NCBI RefSeq assembly: GCF_003574445.1
Contig: NZ_KZ984558.1
Location: forward strand, 186,001-250,000
Source: Streptomyces sp. YIM 130001
GTDB taxonomy: Bacteria; Actinomycetota; Actinomycetes; Streptomycetales; Streptomycetaceae
Reading direction: 5' to 3'
DNA length: 64,000 nucleotides
Shown: one piece after another, positions 1-14,623 of the stretch
Layout of the letters: every line of letters begins with the position of its first letter
Numbering within the stretch: position 1 is the first letter of the stretch
Notes under the pieces: model-generated
The model's input: only the letters and a program-made list of their open reading frames with translations
What the model was told of the DNA's origin: nothing
The model's database searches: none
Translations under genes and position numbers: made by a program

Positions 1-2373
1 CACCGGCCGCCCGATCGGCACAGGGCCGGTGTCCCCGGCCTCGCAGGTGTGATGGCTGACGTCGACCGCGGCCTCGGTCGGCCCGTACAGGTTGTGCAGG
101 CCGACCCGGGGCAGCACCTTGCCGAAGGCCTGCGCGGTCTCCCGCGGCAGCGCCTCGCCACTGCAGAACACCCGGCGCATTCCCGAGCACAGCCCGGCGA
201 CATCGGCGCCCCCGGTCAGGAAGACCTGCAGCATGGACGGCACGAAGTGGCAGGTGGTGACGGCCTGTTCGGCGATCAGCCGGGCCAGGTACACCGGATC
301 CTTGTGGCCACCCGGCTCCGCCACCACAAGGGCCGCGCCCTCACGCAGCGGCCAGAAGAACTCCCACACGGACACGTCGAACGAGGACGGGGTCTTCTGC
401 AGAACCCGGTCGTCGGACCGGAGCCCGTAGGTGTACTGCATCCAGCGCAGCCGGTTGTCGATCGCACCGTGCGACACCACCACGCCCTTGGGGCGCCCGG
501 TCGACCCCGAGGTGTAGATGACGTAGGCCGGGTCCGCAGGCGTCAGGGGCCTCGCCGGATTCGTCGGCAGGTACTCCGCGAGTACGCCGGCGTCGAGCTC
601 CGGCAGGACGACGAGCGGGGTCCCCGCCTCCTCCGGCAGCCGGCTCGCCCGGTCGGTCACGGCGCACACCGGCGCCGCGTCTCGAAGCATGTAGGTGAGC
701 CGCGCCTGCGGATACTCGGGGTCGAGCGGCAGATACGCCGCACCCGACTTGAGGATCGCCAGGAGCGACACGACCAGGTCCACGGAACGCGGCACCGCGA
801 CGGCGACGAGCCGCCCCGGGCCCGCGCCGAGCGACTGCAGATGCCGGGCCAGGCGGTTGGAGCGGGCGTTCAGCGCGCCGTACGTCAGCGAGGTGTCGCC
901 GAAGACCAGGGCCGTGGCGTCCGGGCAGCGAGCGGCACGTGACTCGATCGGACCGATCAGGGTCGTCGGCGGCAGATCACGCTCGGTGCGGTTGAACTCG
1001 TCGACCACCAGGGCGCGTTCGGCCTCGGTGGCGATGCCGTGCGCCCCGAGCTGTGCCTGCGGGTCGGTGTTCGCGAGAGCTTCGAGCAGGTGCAGGAAAC
1101 GGTCCTGATGGGCCGCGAGAGCCGCGTCGTCGTACAGCGCCGGATTGCCGTCGTGATCGATGCGCAGGCCTCGGCCGTCGGCGCGGTCGTAGACGTTGAC
1201 CGTCAGATCGTCGACCGGCCCGGCGGACAGATTGCGGGCGCGTGCCTCGGTGCCGGCGAAGTCCAGGGCGTAGTCGAACGGCATGACGTTCACCAGCGGA
1301 CCGACCAGGCCGCGGCCCTCGCCGAGCAGACCCAGATCGCGGCGGATGTCCTCGTAGCGGTAGCGCTGGTGCCGGCGGATCTTCCGTACGCCGAGCACCA
1401 CCTGCCGCACCAGTTCGGCGAACGTGTCCGTCGGCGAGACGGTGAGCCGCAGCGGCAGCACGTTCATCACCATGCCGGGGATACGCAGCGACGCCGAGCC
1501 GACCCGGCCCATCATCGGCAGCCCGAGGACCACGTCCGACTGCGCGGTGGCACGCGAGGTGTACAGGGCCTGGGCGGCGATCAGCACCTCCGGCCAGGTC
1601 GCCCGCAGCCGGCCCGCCACCTCACGGAGCCGTTCCGCGGTCACCTGCGGCAGATGGGCGGTCCGCCGGCGGAACGTACGGCCGGGCAGCGCGCCCCGGC
1701 CCGCGAGCCGAGGCACCTCGGGGCGGTCGGCGAAAGCCTCCGACCAGTGGTCGCGGTCCGTCGCGTACGCCTCGGACGCCCGGTACTCCGCGTCCTGCTC
1801 CACCAGTTCCTCGAGTGAGCCGAAGGTGCGGGCGGACGGTTCCTCGCCGCGCGCCAGGGCCGAGTAGACCTCCGCCGTACGCCGCGCGAGCAAGGAGTAG
1901 CCGAAGCCGTCGATGACCAGGTGGTGGATGCACTGGTACCACAGCCACCGGTCGTCGCCCACGCGGAACAGGGCCTGGCGGAACAGCGGACCGGCCGTGA
2001 GATCGCAGGGGGTGGCCAGGTCCTCACGCATCCACGCCTCGGCCCGCTCCTGCCCGTCGGCACGACCGCTGAAGTCCAGGACGGTGAGCGGCAGTTCGGC
2101 CTCCGCCTCCACGTACTGCCGCGGCCCGTCCGGGGTGTCCACCACACGTACCCGAAGCACATCGGCTTCCGCGGCGACCCGGCGCAGGGCGGCGGCGAAC
2201 AGGGCCGGGTCGAGCGGGCCGTCCATCTCCAGGCACTCCGCGGTGTTCTGCGCGGGGCTGAGCGGGTCGAGAGCCTGGGCGAACCACATGCCCGACTGGG
2301 CGGCGGTGAGCGGGAGTTCGACCGGAGGCACCACGTCGGCCGACGTGCCCGGATCGGTGTGCAGGAGTGTCAT
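1..2373 (-). CDS. dhbF: Catechol siderophore NRPS, condensation-adenylation (partial, 3' end outside window)
   Basis: Non-ribosomal peptide synthetase that would condense carrier-bound 2,3-dihydroxybenzoate with an amino acid. The 791 visible residues show a condensation domain (about 10-440, active-site HHLVIDG at 150-156) and an adenylation domain from about 470, with core motif YTSGSTGRPKGV near 620 and NLYGPTEA near 770. The gene runs off the left edge, so the carrier and any thioesterase domains are not seen. Aligned by eye to GrsA, the binding-pocket residues read D-V-W-H-F-S-L-V-D, which I recall as the serine code of EntF. The ATG start at 2373 overlaps the carrier-protein stop by 4 bp, indicating translational coupling. 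An EntF-like role is inferred; the serine call depends on a manual alignment. Confidence 0.9.
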   Translation of the reverse strand, partial: MTLLHTDPGTSADVVPPVELPLTAAQSGMWFAQALDPLSPAQNTAECLEMDGPLDPALFAAALRRVAAEADVLRVRVVDTPDGPRQYVEAEAELPLTVLDFSGRADGQERAEAWMREDLATPCDLTAGPLFRQALFRVGDDRWLWYQCIHHLVIDGFGYSLLARRTAEVYSALARGEEPSARTFGSLEELVEQDAEYRASEAYATDRDHWSEAFADRPEVPRLAGRGALPGRTFRRRTAHLPQVTAERLREVAGRLRATWPEVLIAAQALYTSRATAQSDVVLGLPMMGRVGSASLRIPGMVMNVLPLRLTVSPTDTFAELVRQVVLGVRKIRRHQRYRYEDIRRDLGLLGEGRGLVGPLVNVMPFDYALDFAGTEARARNLSAGPVDDLTVNVYDRADGRGLRIDHDGNPALYDDAALAAHQDRFLHLLEALANTDPQAQLGAHGIATEAERALVVDEFNRTERDLPPTTLIGPIESRAARCPDATALVFGDTSLTYGALNARSNRLARHLQSLGAGPGRLVAVAVPRSVDLVVSLLAILKSGAAYLPLDPEYPQARLTYMLRDAAPVCAVTDRASRLPEEAGTPLVVLPELDAGVLAEYLPTNPARPLTPADPAYVIYTSGSTGRPKGVVVSHGAIDNRLRWMQYTYGLRSDDRVLQKTPSSFDVSVWEFFWPLREGAALVVAEPGGHKDPVYLARLIAEQAVTTCHFVPSMLQVFLTGGADVAGLCSGMRRVFCSGEALPRETAQAFGKVLPRVGLHNLYGPTEAAVDVSHHTCEAGDTGPVPIGRPV

Positions 2374-2603
2374 GAGACCTTCACCCCCAGCATCGGTGCC
2401 CAGGCCTCGATGGCCGGCTGCTCGGCGAGATCGGCGAAGTCGGCGGTGACCGCGTGGTCACGACGCCAGCCCTCGAGCAGGGCCATGATCCGGACCGAGT
2501 CGAGGCCGTAGTCCAGCAGGTTCTCGTCGAAGGGGATCTCGGCCGGCTCCTCGCCGAGCGCGTCGGCGACGTCGGCGCGGATCTGTTCCACGGTGAGCGC
2601 CAT
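2370..2603 (-). CDS. Stand-alone aryl carrier protein
   Basis: Small acyl/aryl carrier protein of 77 residues. The phosphopantetheine site is the Ser in LLDYGLDSVRIMALL, S36. It lies between the isochorismatase (4 bp away) and the NRPS (4-bp overlap). In EntB and Bacillus DhbB this domain is fused to the C-terminus of isochorismatase; here it is a separate polypeptide. Its expected role is to hold 2,3-dihydroxybenzoate as a thioester, loaded by DhbE, and to present it to the condensation domain of the next gene. Position and motif make this the most likely reading; an ordinary peptidyl carrier protein cannot be strictly excluded. Confidence 0.88.
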   Translation of the reverse strand: MALTVEQIRADVADALGEEPAEIPFDENLLDYGLDSVRIMALLEGWRRDHAVTADFADLAEQPAIEAWAPMLGVKVS

Positions 2604-2607
2604 CGGT

Positions 2608-3240
2608 TCAGGCCTCCTTGAAGAGGGCGTCGGTGGTGGTCACGACCGCGCAGCGCCCGGCGGCCCAGGTGAGAGCCATGTCGTGGTCCGCGCGGGAGAA
2701 GTCGGCCACGGCGTCGGCCACGACGAAGGCCTGGATGTCACGCATCCAGGCGTCGCAGGCCGACATCAGTACGCCGATGTGCGCGTAGACACCGACCACC
2801 ACAAGCTGGTCACGGCCCGACTCCCGCATCAGATCGGCGAGTTCGGTGCGGACGAAGGCGCTGTACTTCCACTTGGTGAGCCAGGTGTCACCGGGTTCGG
2901 GTGCGACAGCGGCCGGCGTCGCGAGCGCTTCGGGGCCATCGGCCACGCCGGGCCCCCAGAAGTCGAGTTGGAGCCCGCGCTCCTCGGGAGTCTGACCGCC
3001 GCGCTGCGCCGAGTAGACCACAGGGACCGAGCGCTTGCGGCTCTCGGCGAGGACGCGCGAGGTGTTGTCGAGGAGCCCGGTGAGCGGCTCGGTCCCGGCG
3101 GGAAACGCCTTCAGGAAGTGATTCTGCAGGTCGTGCACCAGCAGTACGGCGCGGGACGGATCGACCTTCCACGACACGCGGTTGGCGGGGAGTTCGCCCT
3201 CGGTGGGCAGGGCGTAGGGGGCGATGGCGGGAAGTGCCAT
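2608..3240 (-). CDS. dhbB: Isochorismatase (2,3-dihydro-2,3-dihydroxybenzoate synthase)
   Basis: Cytoplasmic hydrolase cleaving isochorismate to 2,3-dihydro-2,3-dihydroxybenzoate and pyruvate, second step of DHB synthesis. The 210 residues match the isochorismatase domain of EntB/PhzD: catalytic Asp in LLVHDLQNHFL (D37), the lysine segment TKWKYSAF (about 122-129) and the family hallmark GVYAHIGVLMSA (about 150-161). The carrier domain normally fused to EntB is missing because it is encoded by the next gene. It lies in the middle of the dhb operon, 28 bp after dhbE. Confidence 0.93.
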   Translation of the reverse strand: MALPAIAPYALPTEGELPANRVSWKVDPSRAVLLVHDLQNHFLKAFPAGTEPLTGLLDNTSRVLAESRKRSVPVVYSAQRGGQTPEERGLQLDFWGPGVADGPEALATPAAVAPEPGDTWLTKWKYSAFVRTELADLMRESGRDQLVVVGVYAHIGVLMSACDAWMRDIQAFVVADAVADFSRADHDMALTWAAGRCAVVTTTDALFKEA

Positions 3241-3268: not shown

Positions 3269-4927
3269 TCAGTGGTGCTCGGCGGTGGCCGCGGTGGAAC
3301 GCAGCCCCTTCTTGCTGATCTTGCCGATACCGGTCTGCGGGAAGGTGTCGACGAACTCGACGAGGTCGGGAATCTTGTACGCGGCGAGCCCTCGCTCCCG
3401 CACGAAGCGTTTCACCGCCACGGACTTCAGGGGTTCGGCGCCGTCGCGCAGGATCACGTACGCCAGGGACCGCTCCCCGAGGTACTCGTCGGCGACCGCG
3501 ACGACCGAGACGTCATGTACGGACGGATGCGCCAGGATGACGTTCTCGACCTCCTCCGGGGCGACCTTCTCGCCGCCCCGGTTGATCTGGTCCTTCGCCC
3601 GGCCCTCGACCACGAGATGACCGGTCCCGGTGCGCCGCACGATGTCACCGGTCCGGTAGAAACCGTCCCCGGTGAAGGCCGTGGCATTGTGCTCCGGTGC
3701 CCGCCAGTAACCGCGGATGGTGTACGGGCCGCGGGTCAGCAGATGTCCGAACTCCCCTTCTGCGACGTCGAGTCCGGCGTCGTCGACGACCCGCACCTCG
3801 TCGTCGGGCGAGATCGGCAGACCCTGAGTGGTCACCACCGTCTCGTGGTCGTCGTCGAGCCGTGTGTAGTTGACCAGGCCCTCCGCCATGCCGAAGACCT
3901 GCATCAGCCTGCATCCGAGCGCCGGTTCCAGGCGACGGGCCGCAGCCTCGCTGTACTTGGCGCCGCCGACGAGAACCAGCTCCAGGCTGGTCAGGTCGTA
4001 CTCCGTCGACTCGGCGCTGTCCGTCCAGACCAGCGCCAGCGGCGGCACCATCCCGGTCATGGTGATCCGCTCCTGCTCGATCAGCGGGAACGCCGTCGCC
4101 GGATCGGGCCCCGGGCACAGCACGACCGTGCCGCCGGCGTACAGCACGCCCAGCCAACCCGGTGAACTCATAGGGAAGTTGTGTGCCGCCGGCAGCACCA
4201 CGAGGAAGCGGGTGTCCTCGTCCACACCGCAGATGTCGTTGGACCCCCACAGCGAATACAGGTAGTCGTCGTGCGTGCGCGGGATCAGCTTCGGCACACC
4301 GGTGGTCCCGCCGGACAGCTGGAGGAACGCCAGCTGGTGCGGCGCCGGTTCGTCCGGCCGCTCCGAGGGCGGCTCGCACGGCACGTCGGCGAGCGCCGTG
4401 TGCTCCCCGGGGTCACCGGCCACGAACACATGCCGCAGGCCAGGAGTACGCGCCTTGACCGTGGAGGCGAGCGCGCGGTGGTCGAAGCCCGCGTGGCGGT
4501 CCGGGATCACATAGGCCACGGCCTCGGTGAACTCGCAGAAGTAGGAGATCTCCGTCTCCCGGTGCGCGGGCAGCGCGTACACCGGCAGCGCACCGATGCG
4601 CAGCAGCGCGAAGACCACCTCGATGAACTCACCGGCGTTGGGCAGCTGCAGCACCACCCGGTCACCGGGACCGATGCCCCGCTGCCGGAACCCTTCGGCC
4701 AACCGGTCGACGGCGCGGTCGAGTTGGGCGTACGTCCAGGTGCGGCGCTCGGGCGCGGGATCGACCAGAGCGATGCGGTCGGGGTGCTGGGCGGCGCGCT
4801 CGCGCAGGACTCCGCCGAAGGTCTCGCCGCGCCAGTAGCCGGCCGCACGGTAGCGCTCGGCGTACTCGGCGGGCCAGGTCGGCGCGTCGGCCCCGGGGGT
4901 GAGTGCGGGGATGTCGACGGTGGTCAC
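3269..4927 (-). CDS. dhbE: 2,3-dihydroxybenzoate-AMP ligase
   Basis: Adenylates 2,3-dihydroxybenzoate and transfers it to the phosphopantetheine arm of the aryl carrier protein. The 552-residue length suits EntE/DhbE. Visible motifs are the P-loop [24 protein letters not shown] (the His-Asn pair contacting the aryl acid in DhbE), YRTGDIVRR and the C-terminal lysine region GIGKISKK. I chose the GTG at 4927, which overlaps the dhbC stop as GTGA and begins the conserved N-terminus [12 protein letters not shown] longer open frame up to 5080 runs inside dhbC and is not needed. Confidence 0.95.
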
Positions 4928-6141
4928 AGGGCGGCCCCCACCGCGCCGAGGAAGGTGCGGAACTTGGCCGCGGTCTCGGCGGTCTCGGCCTCCGGCGTGG
5001 AGTCGGCGACCACGCCGGCGCCCGCGTACAGCCGCAGCCGGTTGCCCTCGGCCTCCGCGCAGCGGATGGTGACGACCCATTCGCCGTCACCGGAGTCGTC
5101 CTGCCAGCCGACCATCCCGGTGTACGCGCCCCGGTCGAAGGGTTCGGACGCCGCGATCACGTCCCGCGCCACCGCCGTCGGCGTACCGCACACCGCCGGA
5201 GTGGGATGCAGCGCGGACGCCAACTCCAGTGCGCCGGTGCCGGGTTCGGCGAGATCGCCGGTGATGGAGGTGGACAGGTGCCACATGGCCGCGGTACGTA
5301 CGAGCGTCGGCCGCTCGGGCACGTCCAGGCGGGTGCAGAACGGGGCGAGGGCGGCGCCGACCGCATCCACCACCACCGCGTGCTCGTGGAGATCCTTGGC
5401 GGACTCCAGGAGCGCGGCGGCCCGGCGCACATCCTCGGCCAGGTCGGGACTGCGCGGCGCGGACCCGGCCAGCGGATTGGCGATCAACTGCCCGCCGCGG
5501 CGAGCCACGAGGAGCTCGGGGCTCGCCCCGATCAGGGTGCGGCCGGCGCCGCTCGGCAGGGCGAAGGTGTACCCGGAAGGGTCCCGGTGGGCGAGCCGCC
5601 GCAGCATCGCCGGCAGGTCCGGTGGCTGCGGCGAGGACAGCTCCAGGGTGCGCGCGAGCACCACCTTGTCGAACTCGCCGGCCCGCATCCGCGCCACGGC
5701 CGCGGCGACAGCCGCCCCGTACGCATCGGCAGCCGGTACTTCACGCACCCGCCACCCCGCGTCCGACGCCTGCTGAGGCACGGGAAGCGCGATCAGCGGG
5801 TCCTTGTGCAGTGCCGGTGCCGTCCGAAGGGACGCGGGCACGGCGAGCGAGGCCGGTGCGTCGGGTGCGAAGGGCACGGAACCGATCACCACCGGCGACG
5901 GGGCACCGGCGCGACGGGCGTCGTCCAGAGCCGCAGCCACTCGGACCGCCAACGGCCTCTCGTCGTGCGGTATTTCGGATCGGATCCCGCGTGCGAGCAG
6001 AGTGTGCCGTGGCGTGGCGAGAAAGCGGTCAGTGCCCGGCCGGTAGGCCTCGAGCAGCGCCGTCGCGGCGCCGGGAGTGAGGGGCACTTCGGTGGAGGCG
6101 TGCCCGGCCGGCGCGACGGGTTCACGCAGAGAGGCAGACAT
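4924..6141 (-). CDS. dhbC: Isochorismate synthase
   Basis: Converts chorismate to isochorismate, the committed step of catechol siderophore synthesis. The 405-residue protein is a chorismate-binding (EntC/DhbC/MenF) enzyme with [10 protein letters not shown], the active-site segment [30 protein letters not shown] and C-terminal [13 protein letters not shown] followed by IRCAE. The ATG at 6141 has a GGAG sequence about 10 bases upstream. Its stop overlaps the dhbE start. A 192-bp gap separates it from dhbA, the largest gap in the operon, so a second ribosome entry site or weak promoter there is possible. Confidence 0.95.
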
Positions 6142-6333: not shown

Positions 6334-7128
6334 TCAGGCCCTGAGCGTGGCGCCGCCGTCGACGTACAGGTCGTGCAGAGTGATGTGGCGGGCGCGGTCG
6401 GACACCAGGAAGGCGACCGCATCCGCGATGTCCTCGGGCCCGGCGATCCGCCCGAGCGGAATGCCCGTTCGGTACGACTCCGGGTCGCCCGCGACGATCC
6501 GCCGGGCTGCCTCCGTCTCGTCGACGCCGGATTCGGCCCACATGCCGCGCTGCATCTCGGTGAGGGTCGAGCCGGGGGAGACGGTGTTGCAGCGCACTCC
6601 GCGCGCGGCGACCTCGAGGCCGAGGCACTTGGTGAACATGACCGCCGCCGCTTTCGACGCCGCGTACGCGGCCATGCCGGAGCGGGGTACCCCTGCCGCG
6701 TTGGAGGCGACGGTGACGATGCTTCCGTGACCGCGCTCCGACATCCGCCGGGCGGCCGCCCGGCTCAGGTGGAACACGCCGTCGGCGTTGACCGCGAAGG
6801 TGGCGGACCAGTCGTCGTCGCTCAGTTCGGTGACCGGGCCGCCGCGCAGAACGCCGGCGACGCTCACCGCGATGTCCAGTGCGCCCAGTTCGCGTTCGGC
6901 CTCGTCGACGAGGCGTTCCACGGCGTCGGCGTCGGTGACGTCCAAGGCGCGGGCGGTCACCCGGGTGGGATGCTTCACGGCGAGCGCCGCCACGCCCGCC
7001 GGGTCGAGGTCGGTGGCCAGGACTCGGGCACCGCGCTCCACGAGCGCGTTCACCACAGCCTCGCCGATGCCTCGGCCGGCACCCGTGACCAGGGCGAACC
7101 GCCCGGCCAGCTCCTGATCGACAGTCAC
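6334..7128 (-). CDS. dhbA: 2,3-dihydro-2,3-dihydroxybenzoate dehydrogenase
   Basis: Short-chain dehydrogenase oxidising 2,3-dihydro-2,3-dihydroxybenzoate to 2,3-dihydroxybenzoate with NAD+. The 264 residues include the Rossmann motif TGAGRGIG (15-22), Ser142 and the YAASK catalytic pair Y155/K159. The start is GTG at 7128, overlapping as GTGA the stop of a small upstream frame. It appears to be the first enzyme gene after the iron box at 7470. The DhbA/EntA assignment rests on operon context, since SDR sequence alone does not fix the substrate. Confidence 0.92.
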
Positions 7129-7325: not shown

Positions 7326-7760
7326 GGACTGGCTTCTCCGTACGTATCGGTGGCCGGGACGGGTCCGGGCCGGCGTCCGGGCAGGCCGGGACCCGTCCCT
7401 GGACAGGGCAGACAGCACACCTCGGGCCAGGAGCAGCCTCCTGGAGGAGCACGGCCCTCGATGCGCAACTTAGGTTAGGCTAACCATATGTCGATCGTCC
7501 AAGGGGGTCACTGAAAACGGCCGGATCCCGTCATCCCGAACTACCGCGTCAGGAGCGGCCGTCACCCTCGTGACGATCGCCCGACTCGCCGCGCCGTGAC
7601 CCCGAAGTCCCGTACCGGCAGGGCGATTTCGGTGATGCCCGGCAGCCGGGTTCACCCGGCCTCGGCAGGGCGCGGAGCGGTACGCGCGGAAGGCGGACAC
7701 ACCGCAGGCGCAGGGCGGCGGCTCTCGGCCACCGCGCCCGCGCCTCGAGTTGAACGGACC
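7326..7760. other. Intergenic region between the glxA-like gene and the dhb operon
   Basis: About 435 bp holding the iron box at 7470-7488 and presumably the dhb promoter. Apart from the leader frame described separately, no coding potential, repeat or convincing hairpin terminator for the copper oxidase gene was seen. Confidence 0.6.
7470..7488 (-). promoter_or_regulatory. Iron box (DmdR/IdeR-type operator) of the dhb operon
   Basis: TTAGGTTAGGCTAACCATA is an almost complete match to the actinobacterial iron-box consensus bound by the Fe(II)-dependent repressors DmdR1/IdeR. It lies about 340 bp upstream of dhbA and about 145 bp upstream of the small leader frame. It predicts derepression of the siderophore operon when iron is scarce. 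Confidence 0.9.
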
Positions 7761-9764
7761 TCAGTTCGGTGCCGGCGCCGGTGCGTCCGCCGTGGTCTTG
7801 TGCGTCGGAGCGTCCTTCGACACCGGAACGTTCAGCCAGACCGACTCGGACGGGACCCCGCGGTCGTCCACGGCCGTGAGCATGTACCAGCCGGGCGGGA
7901 CGAGCGACGGGTTGTGCGGGACGGTCACCCGCACGCCGTCGGCCGTCCGCTTGAAGTCCATCGCGATCGAACGCTGCTCGACATTGGTGACGTGCGTGAA
8001 CGCGCCCGGCCTGATCAGCCGCATCTTCTTGATGGACGCGGCGTCCTTGCTGCGGAAGTCCGCCGACGCACCTAGCTTCACGGTCCGGCGTGCCCCGTCG
8101 GAGTCGCGCAGCTCCGGCCGCTCGCCCCCCTTGTGGAGATACGGCGGCGTGTAGATCTCCAGCGTCTGCTCGAACTTCCCGGGCTTGCTGTCGGCCTTGT
8201 CGGAGAAGAGCGAGTCGGAACCGAACGTCATCACCCGGCCGTCCGGCAACAGCAGACCGCCCGAGTGGTAGTTGCGCCCGACGAGCGGGGCCGCCGCTTC
8301 GGCGAACTTGTTGGTCCCCGGGTCGTAGAGGGAGGCCTTGAGGACGTTGCTCGCGCCCTTGCCGCGGTAGTCGCCCGAGCCGTTGGTGGTGAGGACGGTG
8401 TCGTCGGGCAGGATCACACTGCTCGGGTAGCGGGCCTTGTCGTACAGGTCGGGTCCGTCGGTGAAGCGCGGCTTGTCGGCCTTGAGGTCGGCGATCCCGG
8501 TGCGGTCGGTCGACTTCGGCGACTCGCCGACCCCGCCCCCGCCGAGGACCAGGAACTTCTGGTCCTGGGCGGGCGGCAGCAGGACCGACATGGACGTCTC
8601 CAGGATGTCGGGGTCGGACAGGCCCGGTACCTCGGAGAACTTGTTGGAGTCCAGATCCCACAGGCCCGGCACCCGGCCCTGGTCGTCCGGCCCGTATCCC
8701 GCGTTCGATCCGGTGAAGAAGATGCGGCTGTCCGCGGTGAGGAACAGTGCCGGATAGGTCGGGAAGAACCGCGACTTCGGCAGGTACTTCCACTTCTTCG
8801 ACTTCGGGTCGTAGATCTCGTTCTTGCCGGGGACGACCTGTCCGATCTCGTCGAGACCGGAGACCGACAGGACCTTGCCGTCCTCCAGCGTGGTCAGTGT
8901 CGGGTACCAGCGGGCCTCCGCCATCGGATCGACCGTGATGTACCGCTCGGCCACGGGGTCGAACTCGAACGAGTCCTTGATCCCCTGGAAGTCCTTCTTG
9001 TCGAAGGACAGCTTCTGCGCGATGCCGTAGATGTTCTGCTTCTCGTCGCCCTTGAGGCCCTCGACCCGGTACTGGTCCTGGGTGCCGGTCTGGTACTTCT
9101 CACCCTTCTCGGGCGCCTCCACATAAACCCTGGCGCTGCTCGCGGTGACCTTGGCCTTGCCGGTCTTCTTGTCGACGGTCTTCTTCGCGCGCGGGATCAG
9201 GACACTGGCCTGCGAGACGAAGGTCTTGCCGTTCTCCTGACCCGTGAAGCGCGTCCCTTCCGGCAGGGTCTTGGGCTTGTCCGGGTTCTCGTTGTGCACG
9301 ATCATCAGGCCGCCGGCCTTCTGGACGTCTCCCTTGAGCGTCTCGTAGCGCTGGGTGCCCCCGGCCACCAGGAGATTGCCGTCCGGCAGCTGGGTGTGGC
9401 CGGCGCAGAACAGGTCCTTCGGAGTGTCGATCTCCTTGAAGGAGTTCTTCTTCGGGTCCCAGAGCACGGTGCGGAACGTCTTGGCGTCGAACTGTTTGGC
9501 GTCGTTGCCCGACCCGGCGATCAGCAGCACCTTGCCGGTGTTCAGCAGCGCCGCGTGAATGGTGTTGATGCGGTACTTCTCGGGGACGTCGACGGTCCGC
9601 CAGTGGCCCTTCTCCGCCTTGTAGTCGGCCTGGTCGATCTCGTAGGCGTGATAGCGCTCGGAGGTGAAGTCGTACACCGCCGGTGCATTGGCCGCGGCGA
9701 GTGCGAGCACCGCCCCGCAGGCGAGCAGAATGCGAACGGGTCGGCGGCTCGGACGGTGTGCCAT
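7761..9764 (-). CDS. GlxA-like radical copper oxidase (Kelch/DUF1929)
   Basis: Galactose-oxidase-type mononuclear copper enzyme of 667 residues. It has an N-terminal signal-anchor (about 10-30), Kelch propeller and C-terminal DUF1929 domain. By comparison with S. lividans GlxA and galactose oxidase, the cofactor residues appear present: Cys120 in LFCAGHTQLPDG, Tyr287 in ARWYPTL (Tyr-Cys crosslink), Tyr499-His500 in GRNYHSGG and His591 in THVTNVEQR. GlxA works extracytoplasmically with the CslA glycan synthase in hyphal morphogenesis, but no cslA is present here, so this may be a paralogue. The ATG at 9764 follows GGGAG. The substrate is unknown. Confidence 0.9.
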   Translation of the reverse strand: MAHRPSRRPVRILLACGAVLALAAANAPAVYDFTSERYHAYEIDQADYKAEKGHWRTVDVPEKYRINTIHAALLNTGKVLLIAGSGNDAKQFDAKTFRTVLWDPKKNSFKEIDTPKDLFCAGHTQLPDGNLLVAGGTQRYETLKGDVQKAGGLMIVHNENPDKPKTLPEGTRFTGQENGKTFVSQASVLIPRAKKTVDKKTGKAKVTASSARVYVEAPEKGEKYQTGTQDQYRVEGLKGDEKQNIYGIAQKLSFDKKDFQGIKDSFEFDPVAERYITVDPMAEARWYPTLTTLEDGKVLSVSGLDEIGQVVPGKNEIYDPKSKKWKYLPKSRFFPTYPALFLTADSRIFFTGSNAGYGPDDQGRVPGLWDLDSNKFSEVPGLSDPDILETSMSVLLPPAQDQKFLVLGGGGVGESPKSTDRTGIADLKADKPRFTDGPDLYDKARYPSSVILPDDTVLTTNGSGDYRGKGASNVLKASLYDPGTNKFAEAAAPLVGRNYHSGGLLLPDGRVMTFGSDSLFSDKADSKPGKFEQTLEIYTPPYLHKGGERPELRDSDGARRTVKLGASADFRSKDAASIKKMRLIRPGAFTHVTNVEQRSIAMDFKRTADGVRVTVPHNPSLVPPGWYMLTAVDDRGVPSESVWLNVPVSKDAPTHKTTADAPAPAPN

Positions 9765-10022
9765 CGATTTCACTCCCAGGGCAGTGCGGCGAACGGTCGG
9801 GCGTCTATCGACGGTGCGATATGTCCGATTGTTGAGCGTATGACGGGATTGACGCATCAACGGTTCGCGACTACAGGGCCATTCGGCCCCTCTTGAGGGG
9901 TGAATCGGGCGTACCGAAGGGAAGCCGGGGCGCGGCGATGACCCGCGAGGTAATCGACCGCCGCGGCCCATTCGGAGAGGCTCGGTCAGGCACCGGTTCA
10001 CAGCCCGACCGAGGAGGGCCCC

Positions 10023-10376
10023 ATGACGTACTTCACCGCGGCCCATCTGCAGAATGACGCGCAGCACGAGGACGTACTCGTCTACCTGGAGCGCATCCAG
10101 TCGACGATGGACCCCTACGAGGGCCGGTTCGTCGTGCACGGAGCGAAGCCCGAGGTCGTCGAGGGCAGCTGGCCGGGATACCTCGTGGTGATCGCCTTCC
10201 CCGACGAGGCGCGGGCGAAGGGCTGGTACGACTCGGACGCGTACCAGGAGATCCTGCCGATGCGCACCGATCACATCGCGGCCGACGTGATCATGGTGCC
10301 CGGTGTGCCGGACGGCTACGACCCGGCGCGGACCGCCGCCCGGTTGCGGACGGCGGCCGACGCCGGCGCTGTCTAG
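10023..10376 (+). CDS. DUF1330 family protein
   Basis: Small cytoplasmic protein of 117 residues with the dimeric ferredoxin-like (alpha/beta barrel) pattern of DUF1330: RFVVHGAKPEVVEGSWPGYLVVIAFPDEARAKGWYDSDAYQEILPMR. The function of the family is not established. A strong GAGGAGG ribosome site precedes the ATG. It is divergent from the copper oxidase and convergent with the siderophore-binding lipoprotein, whose stop is only 6 bp away. Confidence 0.85.
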   Translation: MTYFTAAHLQNDAQHEDVLVYLERIQSTMDPYEGRFVVHGAKPEVVEGSWPGYLVVIAFPDEARAKGWYDSDAYQEILPMRTDHIAADVIMVPGVPDGYDPARTAARLRTAADAGAV

Positions 10377-10382
10377 GCCTGT

Positions 10383-11381
10383 CTATTTCACCTTGTCGGC
10401 GAGGAGCGGGACGACCTTGTCGATGGCGTACGAGACCGAGAGCACCGAGTCCGTCGCGAAGGCCTTGTCGACCGTCGCGGGGAAGAACAGATCGCGGCCG
10501 TCCTTCACCGACGGCACCGCCTTGTACAGCGGGTCATCGGTGATGGTCTTGGCCGGGATGCCGATCGGGGTCATCACCGTGAGGTCGGCGTCGAGGAGCG
10601 TCAGATTCTCCTTGGACACCGAGATGGAGAACGCCTTGCCGGCCTTCTTCTGCACGGCCGGCGAGTTCTCGAAGCCCAGGCTCTCGACGAAGTTGATCCG
10701 GCCGGTGCCGCGGACGTAGGCGCCGTAGCCCTCGGAGGTGCGCGAGCCGACCGTGATGGTCTTGCCCTGGAACTCGGGGTGGGCCTTCTTGGCCGCGGCG
10801 AACTTCTTCTCCACGCCGGAGATCAGCTTGTCGCCCTTCTCGGGTACGCCGAGCGCCGCCGAGACCATCTTCGTCTGCTTGTCCCACGTCACCTTGTACT
10901 GGTCGCCGCCCTTCGGGACGCCGACCGTCGGGGCGATCTTGCTGAGGGTGTCGTAACGGGTCTTGTCGCCGCTGGACTTCACGTCGAGGATCAGGTCGGG
11001 CTGCAGCTCGGCGATCTTCTCGTACTCCGGCTCGAGGGTCCCGATCAGCTGCGGCTTCTTCTCGTACTTGCCCTTGGCCCAGGGGCCGACACCGTCGCCG
11101 CCGAACGGCAGCCAGTCGCTCGCGCCGACCGGCTGCACGCCGAGGGCGAGTGCGGTCTCCGCGTCGCCCCAGCCGAGTGCGACGACCCGCTTGGGGGCCT
11201 CGTCCACGGTGACTTCGCCGAACTTGGTCGCGACCTTGGCGGGAAAGGCACCCTTCGAGCCGGTCGACGAGCTGCTCGACGACTCGTCGCCGTCGGAGGA
11301 TCCGCAGGCCGTCACGGAGACGAGGACGGCGGCGAGAATGCCGGACAGCAGGGTCGCGGTGCGGCGGGAGGACTTCATCAT
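10383..11381 (-). CDS. Ferric-siderophore ABC transporter, substrate-binding lipoprotein
   Basis: Extracellular iron-siderophore receptor, FepB/FecB (class III SBP) type, of about 332 residues. A signal peptide ends in the lipobox VTAC (Cys26), then a Ser-rich linker and the paired lobes with KRVVALGWGDAETALALGVQPVGA and ELQPDLILD. The start is ambiguous: GTG 11390, ATG 11381 and ATG 11378 are in frame; GGGTGA upstream favours one of the ATGs. It has its own iron box directly upstream and sits last in the minus-strand set permease-permease-ATPase-lipoprotein. The substrate is probably the catechol siderophore made by the nearby dhb genes (inference). Confidence 0.93.
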   Translation of the reverse strand: MMKSSRRTATLLSGILAAVLVSVTACGSSDGDESSSSSSTGSKGAFPAKVATKFGEVTVDEAPKRVVALGWGDAETALALGVQPVGASDWLPFGGDGVGPWAKGKYEKKPQLIGTLEPEYEKIAELQPDLILDVKSSGDKTRYDTLSKIAPTVGVPKGGDQYKVTWDKQTKMVSAALGVPEKGDKLISGVEKKFAAAKKAHPEFQGKTITVGSRTSEGYGAYVRGTGRINFVESLGFENSPAVQKKAGKAFSISVSKENLTLLDADLTVMTPIGIPAKTITDDPLYKAVPSVKDGRDLFFPATVDKAFATDSVLSVSYAIDKVVPLLADKVK

Positions 11382-11394
11382 GACGTTCACCCGG

Positions 11395-11413
11395 TCAGGT
11401 TAGCCTAGCCTTA
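11395..11413 (-). promoter_or_regulatory. Second iron box, internal to the transporter locus
   Basis: Read on the minus strand, TAAGGCTAGGCTAACCTGA fits the DmdR/IdeR consensus with a few mismatches. It overlaps the TAA stop of the ATPase gene (11411-11413) and ends only 14 bp before the lipoprotein ATG, so the binding-protein gene probably has a separate iron-controlled promoter. Confidence 0.8.
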
Positions 11414-12343
11414 CTGTTGCGGTGCCACGTGGTGCCGCCCCAGCGGAACCACCACGGGTGTGGCCGAGGCAGGATCGTCGATCACCTTGCAGCGCATCCC
11501 GAACACCTCGCCGACCAGCTCCTCGTCGACGATCTCCGTCGGATCGCCCTCGGCGACGATCTGCCCGTCCTTCATCGCGATCAGATGGTCCGCGTACCGG
11601 CAGGCCAGGTTCAGGTCGTGCAGCACCGCGACCAGCGTCACCCCCCGCTCCCGGTTCAGATCCGTCAACAGGTCCAGTACGTCCAGCTGATGACTGACGT
11701 CGAGGAACGTCGTGGGCTCGTCCAGGAGCAGGATGTCCGTGCGCTGGGACAGGGCCATCGCGATCCACACCCGCTGCCGCTGGCCGCCGGACAGCTCGTC
11801 CACCGGCCGGTCGGCGAGGTCGAGGACATCGGTGGCCAGCAACGCCTCCGCGACCGCGGCGTCGTCCTCGGCCGTCCATCGCCGGAACCAGCCCTGGTGC
11901 GGATAGCGGCCCCGGCCCACCAGATCGGAGACGGTGATGCCCTCCGGAGCGATCGGGCTCTGCGGCAGGATCCCGAGCAGCGCGGCGACCTCCTTGGTCG
12001 GCGTGTGCTGGATGTCGCGGCCGTCGAGCAGCACCTGACCTGCGGTGGGCGCCAGCAGCCGGGCCATCGCCCGCAGCAGGGTCGACTTGCCGCAGGCGTT
12101 GGGACCGACGATGACGCTGATGCGGCCGCGCGGGACGGTGACGTCGAGATCCTTGACGATGTCGCGCTCGCCGTAGCCGAGGCTCACACCACGGGCCTCG
12201 AGCGTGTGTCCGTCCTGCACCGAGTCGCCCTCTCGCGTCGTCGCCGGCCCGGACCGGGCCGCCGTCTCCTTCGCCGGTCGCGGGCGCCCGCCCGCGACCG
12301 TACGCCGCAGCTCGCCGTCCGGCGATGTCCTGGAATCCTTCAT
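11411..12343 (-). CDS. Ferric-siderophore ABC transporter, ATP-binding protein
   Basis: FepC/FecE-type ATPase energising siderophore import. It shows Walker A GPNACGKST (80-88), Q-loop LPQSP, signature LSGGQRQR, Walker B ILLLDEP and the H-loop LHD. With the ATG at 12343 (GAGGTGG ribosome site) it has 310 residues, including a charged, low-complexity N-terminal extension of 41 residues not usual in the family. A GTG at 12220 (GAGGG 8 bases upstream) gives the canonical length and is a serious alternative. It lies 10 bp after the second permease gene. Confidence 0.93.
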   Translation of the reverse strand: MKDSRTSPDGELRRTVAGGRPRPAKETAARSGPATTREGDSVQDGHTLEARGVSLGYGERDIVKDLDVTVPRGRISVIVGPNACGKSTLLRAMARLLAPTAGQVLLDGRDIQHTPTKEVAALLGILPQSPIAPEGITVSDLVGRGRYPHQGWFRRWTAEDDAAVAEALLATDVLDLADRPVDELSGGQRQRVWIAMALSQRTDILLLDEPTTFLDVSHQLDVLDLLTDLNRERGVTLVAVLHDLNLACRYADHLIAMKDGQIVAEGDPTEIVDEELVGEVFGMRCKVIDDPASATPVVVPLGRHHVAPQQ

Positions 12344-12353
12344 GGCGGCCACC

Positions 12354-13433
12354 TCAGCCTCCCCGTCCCACGCGATTGGCCCGGGCCAGCAGGAACAGCA
12401 GATAGGGCGCACCGATGATGCTCGTCACCACACCAACGGGAAGCTGCGTGGACGGCAGCAGGTGCTGCGCGACGAGATCGGCGGTCAGGACCATCACGGC
12501 CCCGGTCAGGGCCGCGGGCAGCAGCGCCGGCCGGCCCGGCACGAGGCGCCGCGCGATGGGTGCGGACAGCAGCGCCACGAAGTCCACCGGGCCCGCCGCC
12601 GCCGTGGCCACACCCGCGAGCGCGGTGGCGCAGGCGAGCAGGGCGAGGCGGCTCGGCTCGACCCGGGTGCCGAGCCCCGCGGCGGTGTCGTCGCCGAGCT
12701 GCAGCGCCGGCAGCAGCCGGGCCGCCAGGACGGTCAGCGGCCCGAGCACGGACAGGCCGATGACCAGAGGCCACAACTGGTCCCAGGAACGGCCGTTGAG
12801 GCTGCCCTTCAACCAGCCGAGGAGCTGCTGCGCATCGGTCACCTCCGCCCGCGTCATCAAGTACGACACCAGGCTGACCAGACCGGCCGCCACCCCGAGA
12901 CCCACCAGGACGAGCCGCTGTCCGACCACGCCGTTGCGCCACGCCAGCAGGTAGATCGCGATGCCCGCGATCATCGCGCCCGCGAGGGCGGTCATCGACA
13001 GAGCGAGACCACTGAGCTGGAAGCCGAGCGAGCCGATCGCGGCGCCGGCACTCGCACCGGCGCTGATGCCGATGATGTCCGGACTGGCCAGCGGATTGCG
13101 CAGCAACGTCTGGAAGACCGCGCCCGCGGTCCCGAAAGCCATGCCGATCAGTACCGCGAGCAGCGCCCGCGGGAGCCGCAGCTCCATGATCACGAACTCG
13201 GCGCCGCCAGGACCGTCGCCGGACAGCGTCGCCACCACATCCGCGAGGGGCACCACCATGTCGCCGACGCTGAGCGACACACAGAACACCGCCAGGGCGC
13301 ACAGCGCGAGCCCCGCGCTCACCACCACCCAGCGCCGCCGTCCGGCGTGCCGCGCCCGCGACACCTCCTGGATCGCGGCCTCGGTACGGGCCCGGCGCTC
13401 GGCCGGTCCGCCGTCGATCACCGGTGCGGTCAC
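12354..13433 (-). CDS. Ferric-siderophore ABC transporter, FecCD-type permease
   Basis: Inner-membrane permease of the FecCD family, 359 residues, about nine to ten hydrophobic helices. Family motifs include RLPRALLAVLIGMAFGTAGAVFQ, RNPLASPDIIGISAGAS and GPVDFVALLSAPIARRLV. The GTG at 13433 overlaps the stop of the upstream permease as GTGA. The frame remains open to 13694 but that extension lies inside the first permease. It should form the FepD/FepG-type heterodimer channel with the neighbouring gene. Confidence 0.94.
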   Translation of the reverse strand: MTAPVIDGGPAERRARTEAAIQEVSRARHAGRRRWVVVSAGLALCALAVFCVSLSVGDMVVPLADVVATLSGDGPGGAEFVIMELRLPRALLAVLIGMAFGTAGAVFQTLLRNPLASPDIIGISAGASAGAAIGSLGFQLSGLALSMTALAGAMIAGIAIYLLAWRNGVVGQRLVLVGLGVAAGLVSLVSYLMTRAEVTDAQQLLGWLKGSLNGRSWDQLWPLVIGLSVLGPLTVLAARLLPALQLGDDTAAGLGTRVEPSRLALLACATALAGVATAAAGPVDFVALLSAPIARRLVPGRPALLPAALTGAVMVLTADLVAQHLLPSTQLPVGVVTSIIGAPYLLFLLARANRVGRGG

Positions 13434-14488
13434 AGTTCCACCATCTTCCGACGCCGCACCAGCCAGATGAACGGAATGCAGCCCACCGCGGCCGTGATCA
13501 CACCGACCTGCACCTCGCCCGGCCGTGCGATCACCCGGCCCAGGATGTCCGCGAGCAGCAGCACGATCGGCGCCAGCAGCATGCTGTACGGCAGGACCCA
13601 GCGGTAGTCGGGGCCGGTGATGAGCCGGGCGACATGGGGAACGGCGAGTCCGACGAAGCCGATCGGCCCCGCGACGACGGTCGCCGCCCCGCACAGCAGC
13701 ACGACGACCAGCGCCGACACGAGCCGTGCCCGGCCGACCCGCTGCCCGAGCCCGCGGGCCAGATCGTCACCCAGGGACAGGGCGTTGAGCTGCGGGCACA
13801 GGGCCAGCGCGAGCACGACGCCGACCGCGATGAACGGTGCGGCCTGCCACAGCACTTCCGCCTCGCGCGCGTCCAGCGAACCGACCTGCCAGAACCGGAA
13901 CTGGTCGTAGCCCTCCCGGTCGTTGAGCAGCATCGCGCTGGTGAACGAGCCGAGCACCGCGCCGGTCGCCGCGCCCGCGAGTGCCAGCTTGACTGGAGTC
14001 GCGCCCTCGCGGCCGAGTGAACCCACGCCGTACACCAGGAGCGAAGCGAGCAGCGCGCCGAGGAAGCCGAACCAGATGTACTGCGAGGGCGAGGTCAGAC
14101 CGAGGGCGCTGATCGCGACGACGACCGCGAGCGAAGCGCCCTGATTGATGCCGAGCAGCGTCGGGTCGGCGAGCGGATTGCGTGCCACTCCTTGCATCAC
14201 GGTGCCGCCGAGGCCGAGGGCCACACCGGCGAGCAGCCCGGCGACGGTGCGGGGGATCCGCACCTCCTGGATGATCAGCTGCCCCTGGTCGCCGGGCTGC
14301 GGATCGAAGACGCCCTGCGTCACATCGGCGAGCGAGACCGGACCCGAACCGATCGCCAGGCTGGCCAGCACTGCGAGCAGCAGGACGGCCCCGACGACCA
14401 GCAGCCCGAGAGCGAGTACGGGCCTGCTGCGGGCGCGGCGCCTGGGCCCCCGCTCGCGGGGGAGGGCCTCAGCCGCAGGTGCCGTCAC
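13430..14488 (-). CDS. Ferric-siderophore ABC transporter, FecCD-type permease
   Basis: First gene of the transporter operon and partner of the next permease: about 352 residues, multi-spanning, with RIPRTVAGLLAGVALGLGGTVMQ, RNPLADPTLLGINQGASLAVV and GPIGFVGLAVPHVARLITG. I favour the GTG at 14488, giving VTAPAAEALPRERG before the first helix; an open frame to 14608 would start too close to the iron box. With that start the iron box lies about 135 bp upstream. Confidence 0.92.
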   Translation of the reverse strand: MTAPAAEALPRERGPRRRARSRPVLALGLLVVGAVLLLAVLASLAIGSGPVSLADVTQGVFDPQPGDQGQLIIQEVRIPRTVAGLLAGVALGLGGTVMQGVARNPLADPTLLGINQGASLAVVVAISALGLTSPSQYIWFGFLGALLASLLVYGVGSLGREGATPVKLALAGAATGAVLGSFTSAMLLNDREGYDQFRFWQVGSLDAREAEVLWQAAPFIAVGVVLALALCPQLNALSLGDDLARGLGQRVGRARLVSALVVVLLCGAATVVAGPIGFVGLAVPHVARLITGPDYRWVLPYSMLLAPIVLLLADILGRVIARPGEVQVGVITAAVGCIPFIWLVRRRKMVEL

Positions 14489-14623
14489 GACCCTGCCGCC
14501 CGTGGACCGGGCCAGCGGTTGCGCACTGTCTCTACATCCTCGTATCTGCGTCCGGTGCGGCTTGCCGCGGACAGTCGGCAAAAGTACCTGCACTCCCGCA
14601 GCCGACACGGCCGCGGGCCCAAG

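Follow-up and report, generated by a model that had tools for sequence, protein, structure and literature searches.

The window, that is, the whole 64,000-nucleotide stretch of Streptomyces sp. YIM 130001 DNA analysed here, begins in what is very probably (about 90%) an iron-regulated siderophore cluster of the enterobactin type, built from 2,3-dihydroxybenzoate (DHB) and serine. The locus has a single C-A-T-TE module with a serine code, a split EntB and adjacent DHB genes, and these observed domains, code and gene content, together with catalytic motifs and iron-box-like sites, therefore argue for an enterobactin-like product. The same product, made by a split EntB, had been proposed in the sequence-only reading, and this part of it is supported. 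The features are given below, with negative positions lying to the left of the window.

-2731 to -1673 (L011:13269-14327): gene after entF, secreted YncE-like propeller, 352 aa
1 to 2373, minus strand: 5' part of an entF/ensF-like NRPS gene (C-A-T-TE, serine code)
2370 to 2603, minus strand: stand-alone aryl carrier protein (EnsB2/DhbG-like), 77 aa (Pfam PP-binding)
2608 to 3240, minus strand: stand-alone isochorismatase (EnsB1/DhbB-like), 210 aa (Pfam Isochorismatase)
3269 to 4930, minus strand: 2,3-dihydroxybenzoate-AMP ligase EntE, start codon approximate (TIGR02275, 738 vs 723.55 bits)
4924 to 6141, minus strand: isochorismate synthase EntC/DhbC (NCBIfam TIGR00543, above cut-off)
6334 to 7128, minus strand: 2,3-dihydro-2,3-DHB dehydrogenase EntA, a short-chain dehydrogenase (Pfam)
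7470 to 7488, no strand given: iron box (DmdR/IdeR-type), 2 mismatches, upstream of entA
10383 to 11390, minus strand: siderophore-binding protein (Pfam Peripla_BP_2)
11395 to 11413, no strand given: second iron box, 3 mismatches, directly upstream of the siderophore-binding protein gene
11411 to 12412, minus strand: ABC ATPase of the Fe-siderophore importer
12354 to 13694, minus strand: FecCD-type permease (open frame; the true start is further in)
13430 to 14608, minus strand: second FecCD-type permease

The left edge of the window cuts entF, and the remainder was taken from contig NZ_KZ984558.1. The whole gene encodes 1313 aa on the minus strand (window -1568 to 2373; L011:14432-18373, same contig). 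Pfam places Condensation at residues 19-454, AMP-binding at 477-826, AMP-binding_C at 884-955, PP-binding at 982-1045 and Thioesterase at 1070-1300, and the scan of this complete product found no second module. Between a C-A-T-TE gene and one with more modules, both of which had been considered from the truncated frame, the complete gene is the former. To read the pocket, the A domain was aligned to GrsA (from PDB 1AMU) and to E. coli EntF, using GrsA positions 235/236/239/278/299/301/322/330/331, which we take to be the code positions. The result was D-V-W-H-F-S-L-V-D, matching E. coli EntF letter for letter at all nine residues; the code previously derived by hand was thus exactly right, and its assignment as EntF-type serine held, as proper alignment gave no non-serine code. 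The motifs HHLVIDG (C), GGTSL (T) and GWSVGG with the aligned Asp and His (TE) are intact, and NGKLDR is present including its lysine. The observation of a serine-code NRPS with a separate carrier protein is therefore confirmed.

The top NCBIfam models for the entF product were EntF and MxcG. Against the enterobacterial EntF equivalog NF007605 it scored 924.4 bits, below the cut-off of 2400; the product would work like EntF yet falls outside that equivalog. Myxochelin MxcG was rejected, with 915 bits for NF038078 (cut-off 2300) and a thioesterase as C-terminal domain; MxcG-type synthetases use reductive release. A griseobactin-type NRPS was rejected as well, given the one module with a serine code; griseobactin-type enzymes have threonine or arginine modules.

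The DHB supply genes and the aryl carrier protein adjoin entF, and the stop of the carrier protein gene overlaps the entF start by 4 bases. Over 55 aa, the carrier protein shares 53% identity with the EntB C-terminal domain of E. coli, and it has the intact LDYGLDSVR motif, as in EntB, while the isochorismatase is 43% identical to the EntB N-domain and EntA is 46% identical to its E. coli namesake. EntC/DhbC scored 485.6 against the NCBIfam DhbC model (cut-off 486). In addition to the two iron boxes listed above, a third iron-box-like site lies at window -1614, ahead of the propeller gene listed first; sites were found in 0/100 window-shuffled controls. All site calls used what we take to be the DmdR/IdeR-type consensus. 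Four MbtH genes are present in the genome, none of them in the entF cluster, and six ACPS-family matches lie elsewhere in the genome. Complete loss of Fes was ruled out by a Fes-type esterase gene with an Enterochelin_N domain on contig C12 (L183:8611-9927), which is outside the siderophore cluster and stands just ahead of a siderophore-binding-protein-like gene. An iron-box-like site occurs 1.3 kb upstream of this Fes-type gene.

Following the established EntF scheme, EntC, the isochorismatase and EntA would produce 2,3-dihydroxybenzoate, which EntE would load onto the separate carrier protein. L-serine would be activated by the single-module NRPS, whose C domain would couple DHB to serine and whose TE domain would be expected to oligomerise and cyclise three such units into a trilactone. 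The same block holds the FecCD-type importer and binding protein; genes for a Fes-type esterase and an MbtH partner stand at other sites of the genome. With regard to serine activation, trimerisation, the product and iron control, we infer these from homologues.

The enterobactin pathway is already known in Streptomyces, and this strain adds one more species. Enterobactin was reportedly found in Streptomyces in 2001. The E. coli enterobactin synthetase (EntF, EntB, EntE) has the same domain order, pocket code and catalytic motifs, but EntB is fused there and split here, EntF is 38% identical, and here entF has neither ybdZ nor fes next to it, unlike in E. coli. Enterobactin clusters are described for Streptomyces sp. 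NTK937 and Tu6176 in the available text of PMC5481532. For S. varsoviensis, the accessible part of PMC10188961 reports an ens cluster in which EnsB1 and EnsB2 are split and the C-A-PCP-TE protein EnsF is predicted to take serine; enterobactin and linear congeners were isolated from this species. That cluster has in common with ours entA, C and E, a separate isochorismatase and carrier protein and a FepBCDG-like importer (PMC10188961, same portion), with identities to the S. varsoviensis locus L161 of 65% (EntF), 71% (ICL), 70% (ArCP), 73% (EntE), 69% (EntC) and 68% (EntA). The importers differ, the permeases and ATPase being 37-48% identical. PMC10188961 also places the Fes-type gene EnsG inside the S. 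varsoviensis cluster, whereas Fes lies outside the cluster here, and L161 has neither the propeller nor GlxA (see below) within the stretch examined. Griseobactin-type Streptomyces clusters (DhbB/DhbG split) likewise have a stand-alone isochorismatase and carrier protein with DHB genes. A split EntB is usual, not special, in Streptomyces: griseobactin producers have it (PMC12210187, in the text available), and so does S. varsoviensis (PMC10188961, likewise).

The rarity of enterobactin-type siderophores in Streptomyces, also claimed in the sequence-only reading, did not hold up, because clear homologues occur in 29/295 Streptomyces genomes (own included). These matched our C-domain query at ≥60% identity over nearly the whole domain, and the next-best match below them had 51%. 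Additional partial C-domain matches (71-73% identity) were found in G030 and G153, whose pockets also read DVWHFSLVD, as did 27/27 codes read among the 29 genomes (G018 and G089 left out). The isochorismatase search gave 91 confirmed matches, and the best 80 of these were taken as named loci; 53 of them carried a serine-type EntF, 12 had a different EntF-like frame, and 15 had no such frame within the stretch examined. The code was DVWHFSLVD in 51 of the 53, and the two single variants, DVWHFSQVD and DVWHLSLVD, belong to loci L147 and L170. In S. silvae (L112), the EntF homologue is in two open frames (900 + 545 aa), which may reflect a sequencing error or a broken gene.

The gene that follows entF encodes a protein with a signal-peptide-like start. 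When the profile of its family was compared with solved structures, E. coli YncE came first (E 1.4e-25). The structure predicted for the homologue from S. triticagri (90% identity; pLDDT 87, pTM 0.83) likewise had YncE as its best match of all PDB chains (TM 0.84-0.86, by target). The protein is thus predicted to share the propeller fold of E. coli YncE (PDB 3vgz, 7seu), to which it is 26% identical and which also has a signal peptide. Our protein is related to YncE by fold and sequence but is not a strict YncE, scoring 111.7 bits for NF052280 (cut-off 400) and 20 bits for Pfam YNCE (cut-off 27.1). Family scans yielded no function for it. Lactonase and virginiamycin B lyase models gave weak profile hits, and the polar residues N125, T126, R152, N320 and K334 are conserved with YncE; these hits and residues would fit, but do not prove, an extracellular role in handling ferric enterobactin. 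E. coli YncE is secreted and increased in a fur mutant, as stated in the available text of PMC5120174, and this regulation by Fur has a likeness in the iron-box-like site upstream of the propeller here. The two differ in that no enterobactin link is known for E. coli YncE, whose neighbour gene is pqqU. A YncE-family protein is also listed beside a Streptomyces polyene cluster in the accessible part of PMC12093942.

An iron-box-like site (≤4 mismatches) was present upstream of the propeller start in 15 of the 24 loci studied, typically some 50-65 bases away, and near the propeller in 7/8 further Streptomyces stretches (L206 to L213, all but L212). The site was weak, with 4 mismatches, in L204 and L205. 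Shuffling 20 loci by single base gave 0 sites vs 36 in the real loci.

The propeller was found in 19/295 Streptomyces genomes (E ≤ 1e-60), and the family is sharply bounded in this genus, since the weakest among the matches listed was 5.5e-128. All 19 carriers belong to the 29 EntF genomes. The corresponding hypergeometric figure of 5e-23 is not a true probability, because it ignores relatedness and the gene was first met beside entF. More telling are the four carriers (G058, G122, G185, G279) in which a long distance or a contig boundary separates propeller and entF. A tree of the EntF C domain with 31 Streptomyces rows requires five or more changes of the propeller state. A class-wide search recovered the propeller in 7/394 genomes (E ≤ 1e-40). 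Both G419 and G547, Streptomyces outside the 295, have it together with a serine-type EntF, on separate contigs in G547. G506 and G636, of a distant actinobacterial family, have entA, entC and entE, an entB that is fused, and an EntF of the serine type (DVWHVSLID); their propeller gene is away from entF, next to genes for FecCD permeases and a binding protein. Searching that family gave 6/197 genomes (E ≤ 1e-25), G506 and G636 included; serine-type EntF was present in 5/6 of these carriers, namely in all five that were checked for it (all but G794). The propeller is within the entF cluster in G715, G817 and G829 (code DVWHVSLVD in all), and in G794 it has a Fes-type gene and a binding-protein gene nearby. 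Orthology across families is likely but not certain, since identity in the distant matches is low, at about 32-37%, and those proteins contain additional stretches. These distant-family propellers are inside longer open frames of 667-910 aa (L204, L205, L223-L226), one of which carries a bacterial Ig-like domain.

Roughly half of all serine-type clusters are without a propeller, so it is not needed for the pathway; this speaks against the role proposed below, as does its absence from the examined stretch of the S. varsoviensis locus. Among the 50 serine-type named loci with ≥3 kb after entF (from the best 80 of 91), 23 have it: 21 loci carry both a propeller and a Fes-type gene and 2 a propeller alone, while 18 have Fes alone and 9 neither. 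The idea of the propeller as a Fes replacement was dropped, with both genes in 21/50 loci and neither in 9/50.

By its distribution and probable regulation, the propeller likely belongs to the enterobactin system, where we propose that it handles ferric enterobactin outside the cell, either by binding or through opening of the trilactone. We tentatively suggest that it may be a dedicated extracellular component that binds or opens the (ferric) trilactone, which would hint at a role for the Fur-regulated YncE of those enterobacteria that make enterobactin. It is rather doubtful that the propeller is unrelated to the siderophore, being linked through the ancestry of the gene block or handling PQQ. 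E. coli yncE does adjoin pqqU, a PQQ transporter gene, and not enterobactin genes, and related genomes are not independent, so that co-inherited cluster genes co-occur trivially. However, unlinked carriers still have entF (G058, G122, G185, G279, G547, G506, G636), most carriers have an iron-box-like site upstream, and in G715, G817 and G829 the gene accompanies the entF cluster of another family. We found no published report of a propeller-enterobactin link in the open-licence papers searched; the association looks new and deserves follow-up. A YncE-type family known mostly from E. coli, as an orphan antigen that is secreted and regulated by iron, would then track enterobactin production in two distant actinobacterial families, and its tracking of EntF even when unlinked points to a testable functional hypothesis, namely that it binds, hydrolyses or delivers ferric enterobactin extracellularly.

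With regard to the siderophore itself, the main product could differ from enterobactin, since the characterised S. varsoviensis homologue also gives linear and methylated forms. It is unlikely, at perhaps one chance in a few, that the main products are DHB-Ser oligomers in linear or modified form (methyl esters, dehydroalanine forms) and that the synthetase yields little of the cyclic trilactone. Such congeners accompanied enterobactin in S. varsoviensis (PMC10188961, in the part available), but they may come from work-up or culture, and the TE Ser-Asp-His is intact here. We regard as improbable a mixed siderophore, in which DHB or DHB-Ser is also fed to another NRPS of the genome. There are 36 condensation-domain matches in the genome (contigs C11, C13, C14 and C20), and enterobactin DHB genes cross-talk with another pathway in Streptomyces sp. 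NTK937, according to the accessible text of PMC5481532; against this, entF has its own TE and is the sole NRPS gene of the cluster, and homologues repeat the same gene set in dozens of species. That the A domain activates a residue other than serine, such as the threonine of griseobactin- or bacillibactin-like modules, is very improbable even though pocket codes are predictions, since nine of nine pocket residues equal those of E. coli EntF, the pocket alignment excludes a threonine/griseobactin-type code, and five loci taken as griseobactin-type (type and product name inferred) read DMENLGLIN, with EntF 37-41% identical.

Flanked by entA on one side and the importer genes on the other is a gene for a GlxA-type radical copper oxidase (7761-10274, minus strand). 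Of the loci compared, only that of the closest relative, S. triticagri (L044/L100), shares it, and a further GlxA match is found in the same genome at C3:272389.
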